From Auxenochlorella pyrenoidosa (taxonomy: Eukaryota; Chlorophyta; Trebouxiophyceae; Chlorellales; Chlorellaceae), in the NCBI GenBank assembly GCA_001430745.1, contig KQ481983.1, positions 958,634 to 969,404 on the forward strand: a stretch of 10,771 nt of DNA, written 5' to 3'. The translations under genes were made by a program, and so were the position numbers. A model generated the notes under the pieces. The model ran no database searches and was not told where the DNA came from. It saw only the letters and a list, made by a program, of their open reading frames with translations. Of this stretch, positions 1,777-10,771 are shown piece by piece; position 1 is the first letter of the stretch, and each line of letters begins with the position of its first letter.

Positions 1777-2091
1777 TCAATGCGAGGCACAGGACAAGCG
1801 ACGCCGCAGCAGCATGCAAGCCAGACTGCATGCAGATGCCAGCAGCACCAGCAGTAACCAGGCAGGTGTGCCCGACAACAGCTGCCCTGCGGGGACAGTG
1901 GGTGCCCATCGCAAGAAGACACCCAAATGGTGCCCCGCGCTGCTGAGGCCCAGGGCTGCATCGATTTGCCGCACCGCCGCCGGCCCCACCAGCCAGTAGA
2001 TGGCCCTCGCCGGCAAGAGGAGGGCATCGTAGATGGCGGGCAGGGCGGGCTGCCAGGAGGGCGGGGCCACGGCATCCAGCAGCCACTCCGA
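1777..2091 (-). other. Exon 28: post-Hint tail with C-terminal transmembrane segment
   Basis: This exon encodes 104 residues and the stop. It starts SEWLLDAV and continues with an amphipathic Ala/Leu/Pro stretch placed where Hedgehog proteins carry their adduct-recognition region. A hydrophobic span of about 19 residues (1863-1807, AWLLLVLLASACSLACMLL) is followed by RRR and six more residues, as in a single-pass protein with a cytosolic tail. The basic end argues against a GPI signal. The acceptor CCTGCAG (2093-2092) and phase 0 match exon 27, whose donor is CAG|GTGGGC. The last part could be altered by an unseen intron. Confidence 0.68.
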
Positions 2092-5000
2092 CTGCAGGCA
2101 GGAGCAGACAATCGAAGGCTGTGACCAATAGGCGCACGGCCAGCTGCAGAGGAGATGGAGTGGCTAGGGGTCTGCGGTGCAGTAGATGTGCAGCAACTGC
2201 ACAAACGCATGGCCGCCTGCCACATGGAGCAACCGGTGTGCAGGCGCCGCCTTTTTGCGGCTGCTGCTAGCGCATGAAGCATGTCAACATCCCCAAACAG
2301 AAGCAAGCTGCCCACCTGATCTGAGGCGACCACGCCATCCACAGCTATGGTGCCGCCCTGAAGCAGGGGGTGGGGAGAAAGGTATGCCCATAGTCGGGAA
2401 ACACGGCACTCGCTGTCCGGCACGACAGCCCCTGCCTGCTGTGCTCCGTCACACTCCCCAAACCCATGCTTAACGCGAGGCTCACATGCACAAACGGATT
2501 GAACAGGCCGCGCTCGCGGGTGATCCAGACACGCGTCACCACCGCCAGCGATGCAGTGCTCGATGGGCTGCCCTCCAAGCAGCTGCCGGCTGTGGTGCTG
2601 CTGCCACTGCTGCTGCTGTTTGATGCCACCAGCACAAGCATGCCAGGCTGCACATCGCGCGCATACCGCAGCTGCCAAGTGGCTTCTATGCTGCTGCTGC
2701 TGCCGCCCATCAGGGCTGCCCACAAAATGGCGGGCAACCCTGGCAGCCGAGGCGTGGCGCAGCCGCCGCCGCCTCTGCGGCTGCACACCGGCAAGAAATG
2801 CTGCTGGCTGAGCTGCAGCCGGACTGTCGTCCCGGCTCTACACCTTCCATTGCTGCTGCTGCTGCTGCTGCTACCTGTGCTGCCTGCAGTGCTGTTGCCA
2901 CACCTGCTGCTGTCTGCCCCTAGAGGAGCTGCCTCTATGTTCACAAACAGCGCTGCAGTTGTGCTGTCCTGGTGACCAAACAGGTAGACCGGCTTATAGG
3001 CCAGGCTGCCTGTTTTGCCGTCCATGGCGAGCACCTCGTCTCCCACTGCCAGCTGCGCCATCGGCACTGCACCGCGGCCGCGCACGTTGGCCGTGGCAGC
3101 TGCCGGGAAGCAGCCCCCTCCAGGCTCCTCAAACTGGAGCGGTGGCGGGGGCGGCCTCGGCGGCGGGCGGGGCCTGTGTGGGGGCGCATTGCAGGGAAGT
3201 AAGCCATGTACAAATCCACAACTGGAGCCCACGCACAGCCATGCCTTGGCATACGCTACGCATGTCAACCGGGCGCGCATGCACCGCAGTTGCGCATGCA
3301 GGGCGCTGCCAGCGCCCCCCTCTTCCGCACTCACGGCGGCCGCACAAACTCGTTGCAGCGGGCGCCCGAGTAGTCGCCCAGGCAGTTGCACTTGTCCTTG
3401 GTGCACGAGGCGGTGCCCCCCACGTAGCACTTGGGCCCCACCGCCGTGTTCAGGTCAAAGCAGCTCAGGCAGCCCTGGCCCTCGGGGGTTTGCACAGGGT
3501 ACGCGCCCGTCACGCAGGTTGTCGAGGGCGGGACGCAGTTGGCTGCAGGGCGGGGAGGGGTTGCGGGCAGGCAGGCAGGAGTGACGGGCATGCCGAGGGG
3601 CCGCGTGTTGATGCAGGAGGGGTGAGTTGCAAATGGCCCTGCCTCCCGCCCGGCCCTCAACATCCCATCTGCCCCTGGCGACCCCCAGAGGGCGCCTACG
3701 GGTGCAGCCCTCACCCCCACTGTACGTGCAGCCTCGGATGTAGTCTGCCATGCCGGCCTGCAGGTGGACAGGGGGGACAGGTTCTTTGCCCTTCCATCTC
3801 ATGCTGTGAGCAGTCTTCAAGTGAGTTCCCTGCACTGCGCGCCCACTGCGCTGAGCGATGTCGACTGCAGTTTTCAACATAAACAAAGGAACCCAGCAGA
3901 ACTGCGCTGCTTGCCTGGATGGCCTGCAGCGTGGCGGGTGTGGCCCAGCTGACGTTGCGCCAGAGGTTTGGGAAGGAGAAGAGCCCCAGGATGGATGACA
4001 TGGTGTAGTAGACTGGCGGCAGGTCGCTGGTCTGGCCTGCAACGCAGGGAAAGGGAAGTTGAATAACAATGGATGCGGCGTCAGATGTGCTAATCCTGCG
4101 TTGGCTGAGGCGGCACATTCCATGCTGCCACAGGTCGGGCAGCCGGCTGGTGGCCCAGGTTACAGCGCTTGCACCGGTCAATGTCCCTCGACCCTTTCCC
4201 CCGCTCACTGTATGCCTCCAGCTGGCGCGTCCAGCCGGTGCAGTCCACAAAGTTGCCAAACAGGAAGGGGGGCTGGACGTCGGGCGGCATGACTGCAGGC
4301 AGCAGAGCAAAAATGCGGGCACACCGCGTCTGTTAGCGCGCACGCGTGCGATGCTGCACATGCCTCCGGAGCAAGTGCCAGCCCCTTGCACTCCCATCAG
4401 AATCCCAGGGCGAGGCGGTGAGCGCCTGCGAGGCCGCTGGCCCGCTCACTCTGCCGGCCCAGGTAGTTGGAGGAGCGGTTGAAGCCCTGGTAGTCGCTGC
4501 TCGAGTCCTCTGTCGTGTCGGAGCCGCCGAAGCCAAAGGCCGACACCGAAATGGTCAGGCTGGACTTGGAGGCCTGCAGTCGGCCGTAGCTGCACGGCAG
4601 GGAGCGATGCATGCCAGCATTAGTGCTGGAAGGGGGTGCGAGACTGGGGCTCTGGTGGTGGTGGCGGCTGTGAGCCAGGCGGTGGCATCCAAACCCCGAC
4701 ATCAGGCGTGAGCGAGCAGAGTGACAGCAGCAACCTCATGAGCTCCACTGTTGCTCATCGCCCCCCCCCCCCCCCCCTTCCCTCACTTCTCCATGGACAT
4801 GATGGAGACGAGGCTGAGCAGGCCGCCCAGGTAGACCTTGTTACTGCAGCCATGCGGGGCACAGAGCAACGTGGGTCAGGCAGCACCGGCCTCAACCACA
4901 AGCGCAAGGCTCGCGAGATCGGCTGCTGGCCACAGCAGCTGGGCTCGCAGCTACCCGCAGAGAGCAAGCGTTCCAGGTGTTGCGGCAGCTGGTGCTGCAT

Positions 5001-8000
5001 GGCTGCCGGACATAGGGTTCAGCGCAGTGCGCAGACGGGAACCCACATGTAGTGGGTGCCAAAGTTGCGGATCAGACGATAGATCAGCACCTGCAGGGGC
5101 CGGGGGGGCAGGGGCAGGGCGCATTGAGAGCCATGCTGCATGCCGGCAAACGCATGTGCTGGACACCAAGCTGGCATGCACAAAAGGTCAAGAATCAAGC
5201 TGTCGCATCTGACGACTGGGACCCTCCATCTGCCAACTGGGAGAGCTCCTGTCCCTTCTGTCTGATCTCAACACATAGCGCAGCCCCCTGCAACCCATTA
5301 AAGAACCCAGAACAGGCCCTGCCCTCTGTGTATAGGCGCGCCGGCAACGGGTGGTCGCTGCTGGTTGGTACCTGCACCGTCTGCTAGAGCTGGCAACATG
5401 GGCGCCACCCACCGGGTCTGTGGGGTTGGTTGCCAGCGGCTCCACATTAGCGATGAAGGTCTTGTTCAGGGCGACGCCCATGGGGGCGCCCCGCAGCGCC
5501 CAGCCCTTCATGTACAGCTGCGCCTTGGAGGTGATGGTGACCTGGAGGTCGGGAGGGGGGAGAGGGGGGCAATGAATCAGTATTGATTGCAGCCTTGTGC
5601 TGTTGGCCTGGTGACAGCTGTGCTGGTGATACCTCTGCAGGCGCCAGGCAACCATCTGTCGGAGCTCCTGCAGGGAACTGGCCAGACACTGTCGTCCGGC
5701 AGACAGAGGGTGCCCTTTAATCGTGCAGTCAGAGCTGGGTGCAGCCTTAGGCAGCACATGAGGCCTGCACACACGCACCGTGTTCTTCTCCCTGCTCTCC
5801 GACTCGCACGTCTCGTAGTGCCTGCACAGGGCAGCACAGGCAACAGGTTCCAGCAGACTGGTCGAAGGCCAGGTGGCCAATGTAGCAGCCGCTTGCACAG
5901 CGTGAAAGGAACAGACAAGCTGAGAACGCACGTGCCAATGCACGGCCGCAGCATGAAAGAAGTGAAGAGGCGCAGGGGCGGGCAGGGCTGCAGGCTGCAG
6001 GGCTGCGGCCGTATACCAGCCTGGCGATTCCCTGCCGGGGGCCACACTCACGCATTGGCGCTGAAGGAGACAATCCCAAAGTCCGCCTCGACCCCGATGC
6101 TGCAGCACAGTAGGGGATTGGAGGGGGGCCGAGTTCGGCGAATCTGAACGCAGGCGTAAAGCAAGCATCCGAACGGCTGCCGCTCCAGGCCTCTTGTTTG
6201 TTTCTGCCCGCTGCAGCCTGGCCTGGTGCAGCCATGCGCCTCTCCGTGCACTGCAACAGAATCCCACTTCTGCCACCAACACCCACACCAACCAGTCCAC
6301 TCCCGCTCGTCCACTCACTCCACAGTGGTGCTCTCCTTGAAGGAGAAGGTGGAGTAGGAGACCTTGTTGGAGAACTCGGCCTTGCAGGAGCCGCCCAACC
6401 CCGGGTCCAGGCCCGACACGGTGGAGTCGTTGAGCGAGAAGATGTTCTGCAAGGGGTGGGCCACCGGGGCGGCATGGCGGGTTGATGGGGAGGCTGGGCG
6501 GTGGGCCGAGAGGCAGCCCTGATGCAGCACACAGCAGGGGAGGTGCCATCACAGAGTCCAAACAGACGCTCGTTATGGCGCCACTCATGGCAGCTGCCAG
6601 GGAACACCACTTCTGCCAGCCACTGGTTGCAGCATCGCAGCTCCTGGCACAAGAGCAGGGAGCCGCAGGTGGGTGCTGACCTGGTATGTGAACCCTGGGT
6701 CGACGCTGCTGAGCCCCCAGGACAGGGGGAAGCCTGCAGGGCATAATGGCGGCGTCCCATATAGTTCAGGCCTGAGGCTGCGCCTGTGCGGCCGGGACGG
6801 TGTGACATGTCATCATGCAAACGCCCTTAGCTCCTGTTCCATCCCGTCCCGTGCCACACTGCACGGCCGCGAACCAAATGGCATAAGCGCGCACCTGCAA
6901 ACACGTTATAGCCCTGGCCGAGCACGCCGTAGCGGCGGTAGTCGTGCGGGGGGTCTGGACGTGTGCCGTTGTCCACAGGGCGCGGGCGAACCTGCAGGCG
7001 GTTGGGGTGGCAGTGAATGTTTTGATGAAAGGCCACATTGTATACGTGAAATGGAGCAGGCGTGAGTTGCGCTGCACCACGGCTGAGCTTGAGCGAGCAT
7101 CGCATGCATGCGGGCAGTGCTGGCAAGGCACATCAGCTGCTCAGGCCGACACCGCAGCTAGCTAGGACCAGGTAGCGGCAAGTCGCATAAACATTGTTGC
7201 GTCACATCCTCGCCTCGTTGTTCAGCTCGTTGCTCAGGGAGTTGACCGGGATGACCAGCGGGGGGCAGGCCCCCGACTCCAGCTCCCAGGGCTGCGGCTG
7301 CACATACTCCTGCAGCAGAGTGGGGGCAACCCGCTGCCATATGGTTTGCCCACTGTTTGCGTGACTCGGGTGGCACCAGCCGGCACGGCGCCCAGCTCGT
7401 GCGTCCAGCCAAGCCAGCTCCCCAGGCCTGCACACTGCCCACCAGCTTGAGCGTGATGGCCTTGAGCAGCGCGGCGCGGTACGCCTCGCGCAGCCACGTC
7501 TGGTTGGTGGTGTAGCGGAAGGCGTAGGAGCTGATGCCCTCGTCGATGTAAAACTGCGTGGTGAGGTGCAGCGGTTTTGCCTTTTGGTCTTGTGTTTAGG
7601 TTTGGCATTGGTATGGTGCGGCTACCAGCTGGATGGGGTGACCAAATCTGCACGAACGATGCACAAGGGCGGGAGGACGTGGACTCATGCCGCTGCCGTG
7701 AATGCTGCTCTCCCCTCCTGGCTGGCTCCCAGGCAGGGCCCACCTGCTTCATGGCCTGGTTGGTGGGGGCCGCAATGACTTTGCCAAGCGACACGATCCT
7801 GAGCTCATCTGCAAGGGGGCAGGGCGGGCGGACGGGGGCAGCTGTCGCAGGCAGGCGCAACTTGCCTCTTGCTGGCTGCCTTCATACAGGAGCACCAGCA
7901 CGCATATGCAAGGCCCCTCCCGCCCGGCGCAGCAGGCCCTCGCCCCAGCCCGCAGGGTGCGGCAGCCTGCTTGCCTGTCAGGTTGAGGTCCTTGATGGCG

Positions 8001-10771
8001 AACAGCAGGTCGGCAAAGATGCCGCTGGCGCTGGAGGCCATGAGCTGGTCAAAGGCCTGCGGGTCGGGTGCAAGGGAAGGAGGTATCGCCATGCAACGAC
8101 CGCACTGCCAGCAAGCTGCTGCCTTCCTGCTTGGGCAGTCCTAAACACGGCCCGAAACTTGGGAATGGTTTAATGTGAGCGGACAACTGCGGTCGTCCAG
8201 GCATGTGTGTGTTCAACGCTGCACAGCTTGCCGGCATGCAGCCGTCCCGGGCGTTTCCACTTCCGCTTCCCTCCGTTGATTCCCTGCCCCCTCACCTCCG
8301 ACTTGCTGGGGTCCAGCTTGCAGCGCTCCGGCCAGCTGTAGGACGGCTGCATAGTGAAAGCGCAGAACAGCACATGTAAAATGAAGCACACACAGTGCGG
8401 ATGTGTTTGCCCGGTCCTAGCATCTGCTTGACTGATGCAAGGCAGTCGACGGTGTAAAACCGCATTCCCTTGATGCAAGGCGCACTTACCGGTGGCGGCG
8501 CGGGAGGGGGCCTCGGGGGGATGGGAGGGTACTGCAGCACAGCAGCTGGCAGAGAGAGACGAGAAGTCAGCCCTGTCTTGCTGCTGACACCAATGTTGTC
8601 AGCGCGGCACAGGCTGAAGGGCCGCAGCGCTGGCACGAACATGAATGAACACCTCGTGTATGTTAGTCATCTCACCGGCACCGGCGGGCTGGGGGGCGGG
8701 GTGGGCGGTGGGGGAGGGGTAGGCGGCGGAGGACCCGGGGGGTCGCGCAGCTGCATTAGGCAGGGATGCAAACCACCGGGGGAGAGCTGGCAGATCGCAC
8801 CAGCTCACAACAGAGGCCAGCAGAAGGCTGCTTGAGTGGCAGCGTTCCGCCACAGGCAGCACTGTTCAGTTGTCGGGAAGTAGATCTGTCGTAACCCGTC
8901 CCTGCCAACCTTTGCATATGGTGGGCGAGGCGGTGGGTTCGGCGGCTGAGGGGGCCTCGGCGGCGGGCTGGGGGGCACTGGCGGCAGCGGCGGAGGGGGC
9001 GGCGGCGGCGGCTTGGGCTTCGGGGGCGGGGGTGGCGGTCCCGGGCAGCCAGAGGCAGGGCAAGGTGGGTATGGGGGCTGAGGGGAGGGCGGCGGCGGTG
9101 GAGAGGGCGGCGGGGGAGGGCGTGGCGGGCGTGGGGACGGGGGTGCCGGCGGAGGGGAGGGCGGGGAGGGCGGGGCGGGTGGCTTTGGCGGGGGGTTTGG
9201 TGGAGAGGGTGGCGAAGGTGGGGGCAACGGCCTGCAAGGCAGGAGGCAGCCAGGCTCGCGTTTCTTGACGTCTCCAGTTAAATTGTAGCAATGCTCACCA
9301 GGCAATGCACCAGTGAAAAATGCTGCTGCTTGCTTGTGAGACAGCGATGCAGCCTGCATCAGACCATCGGCAGGAGCCGCGGCATGGTGAGTTGCACTCA
9401 CGGTGGTGGAGGTGGGCTGGGTGGCGGGAATGGCGGGGGCGGCGGGGGCGGCGACGGCGGGGGGCTGCATGCATGGAATAAAACGTTGTTGGTCGCCGTA
9501 CTTTCAATTTCGCACCAGCATCCAAGACTTGCAAAGTGTCTGTCGCCGCATGCGGATTATTACAACCGGGGGTCGCCATGAACACCGACCACACCTGGGC
9601 GGCGGCGGCGGCGGGCTGGGCGTGGAGCACAGGATGGTGAAGGTGCTGAACCGGGTGCCTCCCACGGGCACCCAGTTCTGCCCGTCGTAGTTGAAGCCCG
9701 GGAGGGCGAGGGAGAAGGTGCCTTGGAGGGGGGGCGCGCTCTCGCTGGCTCGGTAGGTGCAGGGCAGGTTTGTGTAGTCGGCGGGGGTGGCGGGGATGAT
9801 GGGGTAAAAGGGCGCCCACGTTTGCTCCACCTGTGGTGTCGGGACACGTCAGGACAAGGCAGCATGAGGGATGGGACACGGCACTGTGGACTTGGCCTTG
9901 CACCACAGCTTGGGACACCAGTTGTGCTGCCACACCGGTGCCCTGGAGATGCACGCCAGAGCACGCCGGGCATGTTCTGCTGCAGATTTGAGTTGGCCTG
10001 CAGCGCAGCACCCTGTGCTAACTGCAAAGCCAATGCAGCTGGCAGCCATGGGCCTTGCAAACGGCCACGGCCGCGCGCAGCCAGAGTTGCGATGCAAGCA
10101 CATCAGGGCGGCGCACCTTGAACCCAGAGCAGCTGACAGTGGAGGGACCCTGCATCTGGCAGTTGGCGCCGGAGCTGGCAACCAGCTCCACACCAGCGCC
10201 CGGGCAGCCCAGCCAGACAACGTTTGGAAAGTAGCCAATCTCTGCAGCAACAAGCCAGCGTTGGCCAGCAAAGCCAGGGGCAGTGCAGGTCAGCATGCAT
10301 TGACGCATTACAGGGCCAGAGAGCCGCCTTTCCTGAGTAGGGCATGCATGCCAGTTGCAGTATGCGTCTCCAAATGCGGGCGCTGCACAGCTGTGTTGGA
10401 CTACCCCTCCCTTTCCCACCTGCTCGGGAGCTGCCCCTGTCTTCCAGCGTGCTCAGGGGACTGGTGTCGCTGCTGGCATTGCAGAAGGCCTTGAAGAGGG
10501 GCGGCAGCGGCGGTGGGGGAGAGAGGGGAGGTGGCGGCCTGGCGGGAGGGCTCGGAGGGGGGCTCGGGCGCGGGCGAGGGGGCCGGGGCGGCGGCGGCCG
10601 CGGCGGTGGCCTTGGTTTGGGCGACGGCGGGGGTCGGGGGCTTGGTGGTGGCTTGGGACGAGGCCTTGGCGAGGGAGGGGGTGGCGGGCGTGGCTTGGGC
10701 CGCGGAGGCGGCTTGGGCGAAGGTGGCGGTCGGGGGCGTGGTGGCGGGAGAGGGGGCGAGGGCCGCGGGGG
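1777..10771 (-). CDS. Pro-rich / MACPF / EGF-like / Hint multidomain secreted protein (5' end outside window)
   Basis: I chained 28 exons (minus strand): 10771-10420, 10241-10117, 9830-9595, 9464-9402, 9231-8910, 8750-8676, 8531-8490, 8346-8296, 8056-7975, 7808-7744, 7553-7443, 7309-7214, 6991-6895, 6733-6681, 6446-6319, 6099-6052, 5821-5779, 5541-5413, 5090-5047, 4843-4787, 4589-4450, 4292-4209, 4036-3915, 3757-3715, 3542-3335, 3173-2486, 2357-2316 and 2091-1777. Phases agree at every junction, giving 1286 codons plus a TGA stop at 1779-1777. Acceptors are nearly all TGCAG or CCAG-like. Two donors are GC (CAG|GCAAGC at 7974 and 3914); a third, at 7213, is less certain. Ten or so N-x-S/T sites, Cys pairs and Pro rods indicate a secretory-pathway product; its signal peptide would lie beyond 10771. 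The domains suggest a pore-forming or perforin-like protein tethered to wall and membrane and released by Hint autocleavage. That role is inferred; no family member with this exact order is known to me. Least certain are exon 2 and the donor of exon 12. Confidence 0.78.
2316..3173 (-). other. Hedgehog-type Hint (Hog) autoprocessing domain, exons 26-27
   Basis: After a Pro linker the domain opens with GGGCFP. The putative nucleophile Cys is codon 3112-3110, and the following MAQLAVGDEVLAMD matches the Hint N-terminal block (Hedgehog: GGCFP...L..GD.VLA.D). The block B motif is SQQHFLPV, with His at 2800-2798; Hedgehog has TxxH, so Ser stands for Thr. Then come YARDVQPGMLVLV, GLFNPF and, across a phase-0 intron, GTIAVDGVVAS, which matches the Hedgehog G-[TI]-L-V-[DN]-x-V-x-A-S block. 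There is no C-terminal Asn-nucleophile pair, so this is the Hog type, not a splicing intein. In Hedgehog the domain cleaves before Cys and moves a sterol onto the released fragment. Ser-rich low-complexity insertions stretch the Cys-to-His distance to 104 residues. Confidence 0.9.
2851..2872. repeat. (TGC)7 microsatellite inside the Hint coding exon
   Basis: An uninterrupted TGC/GCA repeat of seven units lies in exon 26. On the coding strand it reads AGC and encodes a poly-Ser run in the insertion between the catalytic Cys block and the SQQH motif. Shorter CTG runs at about 2608-2618 and 2689-2702 encode two further Ser clusters in the same exon. Confidence 0.9.
3335..3757 (-). other. EGF-like Cys-rich module, exons 24-25
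   Basis: Exon 25 (3542-3335) encodes nine Cys in 68 codons, and exon 24 (3757-3715) supplies one more (RGCTYSG). At 3390-3355 the stretch CNCLGDYSGARC fits the EGF-1 pattern C-x-C-x5-G-x2-C exactly. An EGF-like module directly after MACPF is the arrangement of perforin and the complement proteins. The upstream Cys spacing is looser than in a textbook EGF repeat, so a laminin-EGF or degenerate pair is possible. The donor CCGCC|GTGAGTGC (3334) is strong. Confidence 0.8.
3915..6991 (-). other. MACPF (membrane attack complex/perforin) domain, exons 13-23
   Basis: The domain begins with YGVLGQGYNVFAG (exon 13), followed by a DPGFTYQ segment, as in MACPF N-termini. Exon 15-16 strands end in ADFGIVSFSAN, the short Phe/Ser-alternating strand found before the first transmembrane-hairpin region. 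The signature is in exon 19 at 5066-5049: LIRNFGTHY, matching the family core [FY]-G-T-H-[FY] after a Tyr and a helix. It is followed in exon 20 by a YLGG turn, as in perforin and complement C6-C9. Exon 21 is rich in Ser, Gly and acidic residues, as expected of a second hairpin region. MACPF proteins insert into membranes as rings of beta-hairpins; some members are developmental and not lytic. There are N-glycosylation sites NGT, NDS, NKT, NRS and NVS. The intron after exon 23 has a GC donor (3914). Confidence 0.85.
4761..4777. repeat. C17 homopolymer (G17 on the coding strand) in an intron
   Basis: A run of 17 C residues lies in the intron between exons 20 and 21, starting nine nt after the donor GTGAGGGAAGG on the minus strand. 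It is the only long homopolymer in the window. Its length is likely variable between cells or reads. Confidence 0.9.
7214..8346 (-). other. Exons 8-12: unrecognised segment between rod and MACPF domain
   Basis: Exons 8346-8296, 8056-7975, 7808-7744, 7553-7443 and 7309-7214 encode about 135 residues without Pro bias. They include likely helices (FADLLFAIKDLN; a stretch rich in Ala, Leu and Lys near 7460) and N-glycosylation sites NLT and NQT. I recognise no family. By position it could be an N-terminal extension of the MACPF fold or a separate domain. The intron after exon 9 uses a GC donor (CAG|GCAAGC, 7974), required because only this junction keeps phase 1 into DELRIVSLG. The exon 12 donor is uncertain: GAG|GCGAGG at 7213 is the only site I found that keeps phase with exon 13. 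Confidence 0.6.
8490..9464 (-). other. Exons 4-7: second Pro-rich rod
   Basis: Exons 9464-9402, 9231-8910, 8750-8676 and 8531-8490 encode almost only Pro with Ser, Lys, Arg, Ala and Asn. Runs of SPP, KPPP and SPPPPP are typical substrates for prolyl hydroxylation and arabinosylation in plant and algal walls. A CPASGCPG break with two Cys sits near 9060. Exon 4 is phase 2-2 and exons 6 and 7 are phase 0-0, so each can be skipped without a frame change. The rod likely extends or anchors the protein in extracellular matrix. Confidence 0.75.
9595..10241 (-). other. Exons 2-3: small Cys-containing module between the two Pro rods
   Basis: Exon 2 (10241-10117) carries three Cys (in GCPGAG, NCQM, SCSG), and exon 3 (9830-9595) two more (LPCTY, TILCS) with aromatic-rich strands such as FSLALPGFNYDG. 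Exon 3 ends in SPPPPPP and so enters the second rod. The layout, a globular Cys module between Pro rods, is reminiscent of pherophorins, but I do not see the pherophorin domain signature, so the family is left open. Exon 2 may instead start at 10382, since the frame stays open with matching phase and four further Cys. That would leave an intron of only 37 nt, far shorter than all others in this gene, so I prefer 10241. Confidence 0.6.
10420..10771 (-). other. Exon 1 (partial): N-terminal Pro-rich rod and short Cys-containing tail
   Basis: From the right edge to about 10500 the frame is an unbroken run of Pro with Arg, Lys and Ser (repeats such as SPRP, RPKP, PPPSP). This is the composition of hydroxyproline-rich wall glycoproteins and of the pherophorin rod. 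It ends in a globular-looking stretch with a Cys-Asn-Ala-Ser N-glycosylation site and closes at donor GCAG|GTGGGA (10419). No ATG lies in this frame within the window, so the gene starts further right. Confidence 0.72.

Follow-up and report, generated by a model that had tools for sequence, protein, structure and literature searches.

A MACPF-EGF protein joined to a Hedgehog-type Hint domain in the green alga Auxenochlorella pyrenoidosa

Results

One gene carries the MACPF, EGF-like and Hint regions

The window analyzed here, a stretch of 10,771 nucleotides of Auxenochlorella pyrenoidosa (GenBank assembly GCA_001430745.1, contig KQ481983.1; C23:958634-969404 of the 51.6 Mb, 65-contig genome searched), carries on its minus strand a gene encoding a MACPF domain, an EGF-like stretch and a Hedgehog-type Hint domain in one chain. 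The order in the spliced model (1777..8750, Table 1) is Pro-rich region, MACPF, EGF-like stretch, Pro-rich linker, Hint, conserved post-Hint region and hydrophobic tail. This architecture points to a surface protein that would release itself or attach a lipid to itself, and the gene probably encodes a secreted, membrane-held protein whose Hint domain splits off the stalk-MACPF-EGF part, which would then act at or outside the cell surface.

The three motifs reported by a first-pass annotation of this DNA are found at their minus-strand places, with FGTHY at 5063-5049, an EGF-1 pattern at 3390-3355 and the Cys codon of GGGC at 3112-3110. The spliced model has 23 exons, of which exons 14, 20 and 21 hold the motifs, and the phases agree, as expected from the exons of one strand that had been proposed. 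The introns of the model start with GT (19 of 22) or GC (3 of 22). When the annotated relative P0001 is used to guide a spliced alignment, the splice sites are identical with those of the hand splice from 8531 down, with one exception: the exon that starts at 8056 has its donor at 7975 in the hand splice and at 7924 in the guided one. Pfam, with E-values up to 1, finds MACPF and Hint in the 920-residue model and nothing else. The scores of PF01823 (E 8.5e-9, 36.3 bits, cut-off 21.5) and PF01079 (E 1.9e-17, 64 bits, cut-off 29.7) on the spliced protein rule out chance motif matches.

The extent first assigned to the gene, 1777..6991, is too short, as the lead-in exons start at 8346 and homology to the relative P0002 reaches 10248 (P0002 residues 87-197 at window 10248-9597; P0001 residues 36-116 at 9839-9597). 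The Cys-containing N-terminal region (10248-9595, minus strand) has no Pfam name, its best match being DCR with 12.9 bits versus a cut-off of 27. Between 9463 and 8910, Pro-rich exons are given by the hand reading only; they are tentative, since the alignment guided by P0001 passes over them. The C terminus runs beyond Hint into a conserved region and then into a hydrophobic segment of 19 residues with a mean hydropathy of 2.43 (exon 2091-1777). Downstream on the same strand, a further open stretch (window 1374-3, MSQSWAEL...) is probably the next gene; it has no Pfam match when read as one unspliced frame.

Table 1. Features of the MACPF-Hint gene (window positions) and of its MACPF-only neighbor
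Feature	Position	Strand	Description
Upstream stretch, same protein	8910..10771	-	Cys-containing N-terminal region and tentative Pro-rich exons
Coding region	1777..8750	-	23 exons, 920 residues, 3' complete; spliced by hand using splice sites and reading phase
Exons 3-10	8346-6319	-	Conserved lead-in, flanking the MACPF match
Pfam MACPF match	4450..6099	-	Exons 11-16, residues 277-390; FGTHY at 5063-5049, followed by GG
Exons 17-19	4292-3715	-	Follow-on after the MACPF match
Exon 20	3335..3542	-	Cys-rich, EGF-like, CNCLGDYSGARC; ends in the Pro-rich linker
Phase-2 intron	3174..3334	-	Lies in the linker between EGF and Hint (EFVRP|P); the paralogue has it at an identical column and phase
Exon 21	2486..3173	-	Pro-rich linker and most of Hint; Cys 3112-3110; FGHQ; LSQQH
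Exon 22	2316..2357	-	C-terminal Hint motif GGTIAVDGVVASDQ; region of Hedgehog SCYA, Cys replaced by Asp (aligned to Shh)
Exon 23	1777..2091	-	Post-Hint region SEWLLD...LPAIYDALL...GP, hydrophobic segment, basic tail, stop
MACPF-only gene	L001:4420-8990 (C23 ~973.4-978.0 kb)	+	Divergent from the window gene, across a run of 3973 N

The fusion recurs in relatives and at a second locus

The proposed presence of both domains on one protein is also seen in four proteins of relatives, which goes against the refuting case of no co-occurrence in any related alga, and once more within this genome, at another locus, where the linker intron is shared. Among about 5.8 billion proteins searched, with the best 7981 candidates scored, five matches are obtained, four of which have both PF01079 and PF01823: P0001 and P0002 (Micractinium sp. 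CCAP 211/92), P0003 (M. tetrahymenae) and P0004 (M. conductrix). The fifth, P0005, has the Hint only. The window genome is near Micractinium (Chlorellaceae, Trebouxiophyceae) as judged by protein similarity. At the second locus (L028), the MACPF and Hint matches coincide at C26:555-559 kb, and the spliced model of this paralogue has the same domain order as the window gene. Searching with the Hint region of P0001 returns P0001-P0003 only, missing the known relative P0004 (best 7993 candidates). The seeming confinement of the fusion to Micractinium carries little weight, because only the best 7981 and 7998 candidates were scored in the searches for fused and for MACPF-only relatives, respectively. 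No relative is found in the IMG/VR and GTDB contigs (37 and 36 pattern matches, none confirmed), and no NCBIfam model passes its cut-off in P0001, P0005 or the MACPF-only relative P0006. A protein query against the A. pyrenoidosa genome gives 26 matches; the MACPF family search of this one genome gives none, probably because the exons are short.

The window gene and the paralogue, compared over 20 introns of the window stretch and 19 of the paralogue, agree in column and phase at 14 introns. These include the phase-2 intron of the linker and both introns after the main Hint exon. At a sequence identity of 55.6%, the comparison indicates that the common ancestor of both genes was already a MACPF-Hint fusion, and it serves here in place of the transcript test suggested by the first-pass annotation. 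It is extremely improbable that a wrong gene model has merged adjacent MACPF-EGF and Hint genes: besides the intron shared at this identity, the Pro-rich linker is conserved (11 of 19 columns invariant) and fused annotations exist in three other strains or species. Two separate genes are rejected on the shared linker intron together with the fused relatives. TGTAA, a poly(A) marker, occurs six times in the window on both strands versus 3.5 expected; positions 3900 to 3200 have none on the minus strand, but it is also absent after the stop codon.

The Hint domain is of the Hedgehog type

The assignment of the Hint domain to the Hedgehog type is supported by sequence comparison and by the predicted fold of the relative P0001. 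The PF01079 match of the window protein comes in two stretches, the better one covering positions 11-72 of the 213 profile positions, and P0001-P0005 and the L028 protein score 56.4-96 bits, all over the same cut-off. The window Hint aligns to the Hedgehog structures 6tyy and 7e2i (Protein Data Bank (PDB) entries), and the predicted Hint fold of P0001 matches the Hedgehog type more closely than it matches inteins. The intein type is ruled out by its lower fold scores. The bacterial PT-HINT type is ruled out as well, since PF07591 scores below its cut-off: it is not listed for the window protein by Pfam with E-values up to 1, and among the relatives it reaches 13.3-14.4 bits versus a cut-off of 27.7, in P0001 and the L028 protein only.

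Six proteins were aligned, namely those of the window, the paralogue and P0001-P0004, which are 55-88% identical to the window protein overall. In all six, the first Cys of Hint is invariant and His is found at Hedgehog position 303 (FGHQ in the window), Asp303 being absent. These two residues, and the Ser and His of the SxxH motif, are by eye also present in the Hint domains of P0005 and of another gene of this genome, L032. None of the six has the Cys of SCYA, which is replaced by Asp, and HWY, a motif of the sterol recognition region of Hedgehog, is lacking in all six where the alignment continues past Hint. Pfam finds no Hedge signaling domain, with E-values up to 1, in the 920-residue model (8750-1777).

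L032 (2150-785, minus strand, C43) has a Hint domain of the same subfamily (LSPRH, FVHRE), and what follows Hint, a conserved-type region and a hydrophobic tail, is also similar. The N-terminal part is a different one and has no name; the joined upstream stretch of L032 has no Pfam match. It may be that the Hint module has been shuffled within this genome.

The MACPF and EGF-like regions

GTH[FY] is the MACPF signature, and all six aligned proteins have GTHY with GG after it. In a profile search, the MACPF part matches complement C9 (E 1e-4) and, more weakly, perforin-1 (0.0036), apicomplexan PLP1 (0.015) and pleurotolysin B (0.23). The fold-match lists contain no MACPF structure, which at the quality of the model is uninformative. 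The EGF-like stretch, which matches the EGF-1 pattern, is recognized by this motif and by Cys conservation and has no Pfam match in the window protein; weak matches to EGF_Teneurin, below the cut-off, are seen in P0004 and the L028 protein only.

Discussion

Proposed processing of the precursor

Judged from the sequence, release by self-cleavage is plausible, because the Cys, the Ser-x-x-His motif and the His at position 303 are invariant in all six aligned proteins. The precursor most probably enters the secretory route, as suggested by the hydrophobic N termini of P0003 and P0004, the two relatives scored for this, and the Pro-rich-stalked protein would be anchored in the membrane by its C-terminal hydrophobic segment. 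The Hint domain would then attack the peptide bond before its first Cys (an N-to-S acyl shift), and the thioester could be resolved by water, by a thiol, or by a sterol with the aid of the His that occurs naturally at position 303. This cut would leave Hint with the membrane segment and set loose the N-terminal stalk-MACPF-EGF part. Once free, the perforin-like part may be a pore former or a wall or matrix protein, at or outside the cell surface.

Several observations weigh against this proposal. The window end abuts a run of 3973 N in the assembly (L001 401-4373); the 5' end of the gene lies inside this run, which hides the start codon and a signal peptide, if there is one. The hydropathy of the tail is weaker in P0002 (1.39) and P0004 (1.61), perhaps because of the annotation. 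The PF01823 match spans only positions 1-119 of the 214 profile positions, and the MACPF part is mostly under 50 in predicted local distance difference test (pLDDT) score in both structure models (mean pLDDT 31.9 for the first and 40.6 for the second, of which only the Hint was used). The Thr of the T-x-x-H motif is replaced by Ser in all six aligned proteins. The residue before the Cys is Gly in the window protein and the paralogue, and Ser, Lys, Lys and Asp in P0001-P0004; because of this variation the family lacks a conserved cleavage site of the Hedgehog kind, and the Gly-Cys site that had been proposed is not one of its general features. Finally, the fusion protein is predicted here from gene sequences.

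The unconserved residue before the Cys, the Ser in place of Thr and the Asp in place of the SCYA Cys would also fit a Hint domain that no longer cuts and serves only structurally, connecting a stalked MACPF ectodomain with the membrane anchor, so that the protein would act uncut on the surface. This is quite unlikely, however, considering that the first Cys, the His at 303 and the Ser and His of SxxH are all kept at 55-88% identity to the window protein, and by eye in L032 and P0005 too.

It is also conceivable, though rather unlikely, that the protein is lipidated as in Hedgehog: with His in place of Asp303, a sterol would attack the thioester, and the MACPF-EGF part would end in a sterol ester and stay membrane-bound. 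The laboratory swap D303H leaves fly Hedgehog active and widens its sterol range. Sterol transfer is a live option, weaker than release of the stalk-MACPF-EGF part, and stays hypothetical, as the six aligned proteins lack Asp303, the SCYA Cys and the HWY of Hedgehog. The natural His at 303 is the swap engineered in fly Hedgehog, and therefore the question whether non-animal Hog proteins attach sterols is testable with existing assays.

Comparison with known proteins

The window protein resembles Hedgehog Hog/Hint (PDB entries 1at0 and 6tyy) in its Hint fold (as predicted for P0001), in the first Cys, in the S/T-x-x-H motif with Ser for Thr, and in the placement of Hint C-terminal to another part and before a further conserved region. 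It differs from Hedgehog in the His for Asp303, the Asp for the SCYA Cys and the lack of HWY and of a detected Hedge domain, and also in a Ser/Ala-rich Hint insert of variable length and the terminal hydrophobic segment. The gene is filed with the non-Hedgehog Hog proteins and not with Hedgehog. According to passages of PMC2362128 and PMC13353863, such proteins occur in red algae, mosses, alveolates and nematodes, and there too Hog sits on an unrelated, often secreted N-terminal part; the motif-J Cys is likewise replaced in the moss and red-algal proteins. Unlike in the window family, MACPF is not among the N-terminal parts named in these passages. A word search of the main text of PMC2362128 finds none of 'perforin', 'green alga' and 'Chlamydomonas'. 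Eukaryotic Hog proteins outside animals are widespread, and their function is called unknown in PMC13353863.

The MACPF part shares PF01823, GTHY, the following GG and a profile match with complement C9, perforin-1, apicomplexan PLP1 and pleurotolysin B, and the window chain adds to these the Hint, the hydrophobic tail and the Pro-rich stalks. To our knowledge, none of these four has a Hint domain. Since the type of activity of the MACPF family is known, cleavage and its effect are directly measurable here.

Bacterial polymorphic toxins also have Hint beside a toxin-type domain, with release by self-cleavage proposed; there, HINT directly precedes the C-terminal toxin, whereas the window Hint follows MACPF (PMC3482391). 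HINT and MACPF domains are both present in chromerids, described apart (PMC4501334), and in amphioxus and fungi HINT is joined to other defence-type domains (PMC12373286). In agreement with the earlier view that this domain order is new, no described protein with the order MACPF-EGF-Hint turned up in searches of openly licensed PubMed Central (PMC) papers, most matches being judged by their listing.

Neighboring MACPF-only genes and other Hint genes

The search for MACPF-only relatives, in which the best 7998 candidates were scored, gives P0006-P0008, which are without Hint. The locus tags of P0006 and P0008 adjoin those of P0002 and P0003, the adjacent tag pairs being ABPG77_000189/000190 and ABPG75_001464/001465 in two Micractinium genomes. 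This pairing, also seen at the window locus (Table 1), may reflect a tandem duplication or a working pair. On the second option, the Hint-bearing MACPF protein and its MACPF-only neighbor would form a two-component complex in which the Hint form gives membrane attachment or timed release. The adjacency in two tag pairs and at the window locus speaks for such a complex, but it may reflect tandem duplication alone; the two tag pairs, which cover the neighbors of P0002 and P0003, give adjacency and not orientation. In addition, the MACPF-Hint model of L028 and the nearby MACPF-only model L029 lie about 8.6 kb apart. The complex is an unlikely, tentative extension, and it is compatible with release of the MACPF part by Hint cleavage. 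A doubtful further possibility is that of sterol-tipped perforin-like proteins, in which a natural Hint with His-303 as general base would cut off the MACPF part and esterify it to a sterol of the alga; the product would be a pore module that releases itself yet stays membrane-bound, perhaps with a neighboring MACPF-only partner.

Two more divergent Hint genes are seen in this genome, L031 (C24:93000-102900) and L030 (C23:3606500-3616400). L031, which runs into N, keeps TxxH and shows Ser at position 303; L030 has VLASSYA in place of the Hedgehog SCYA.
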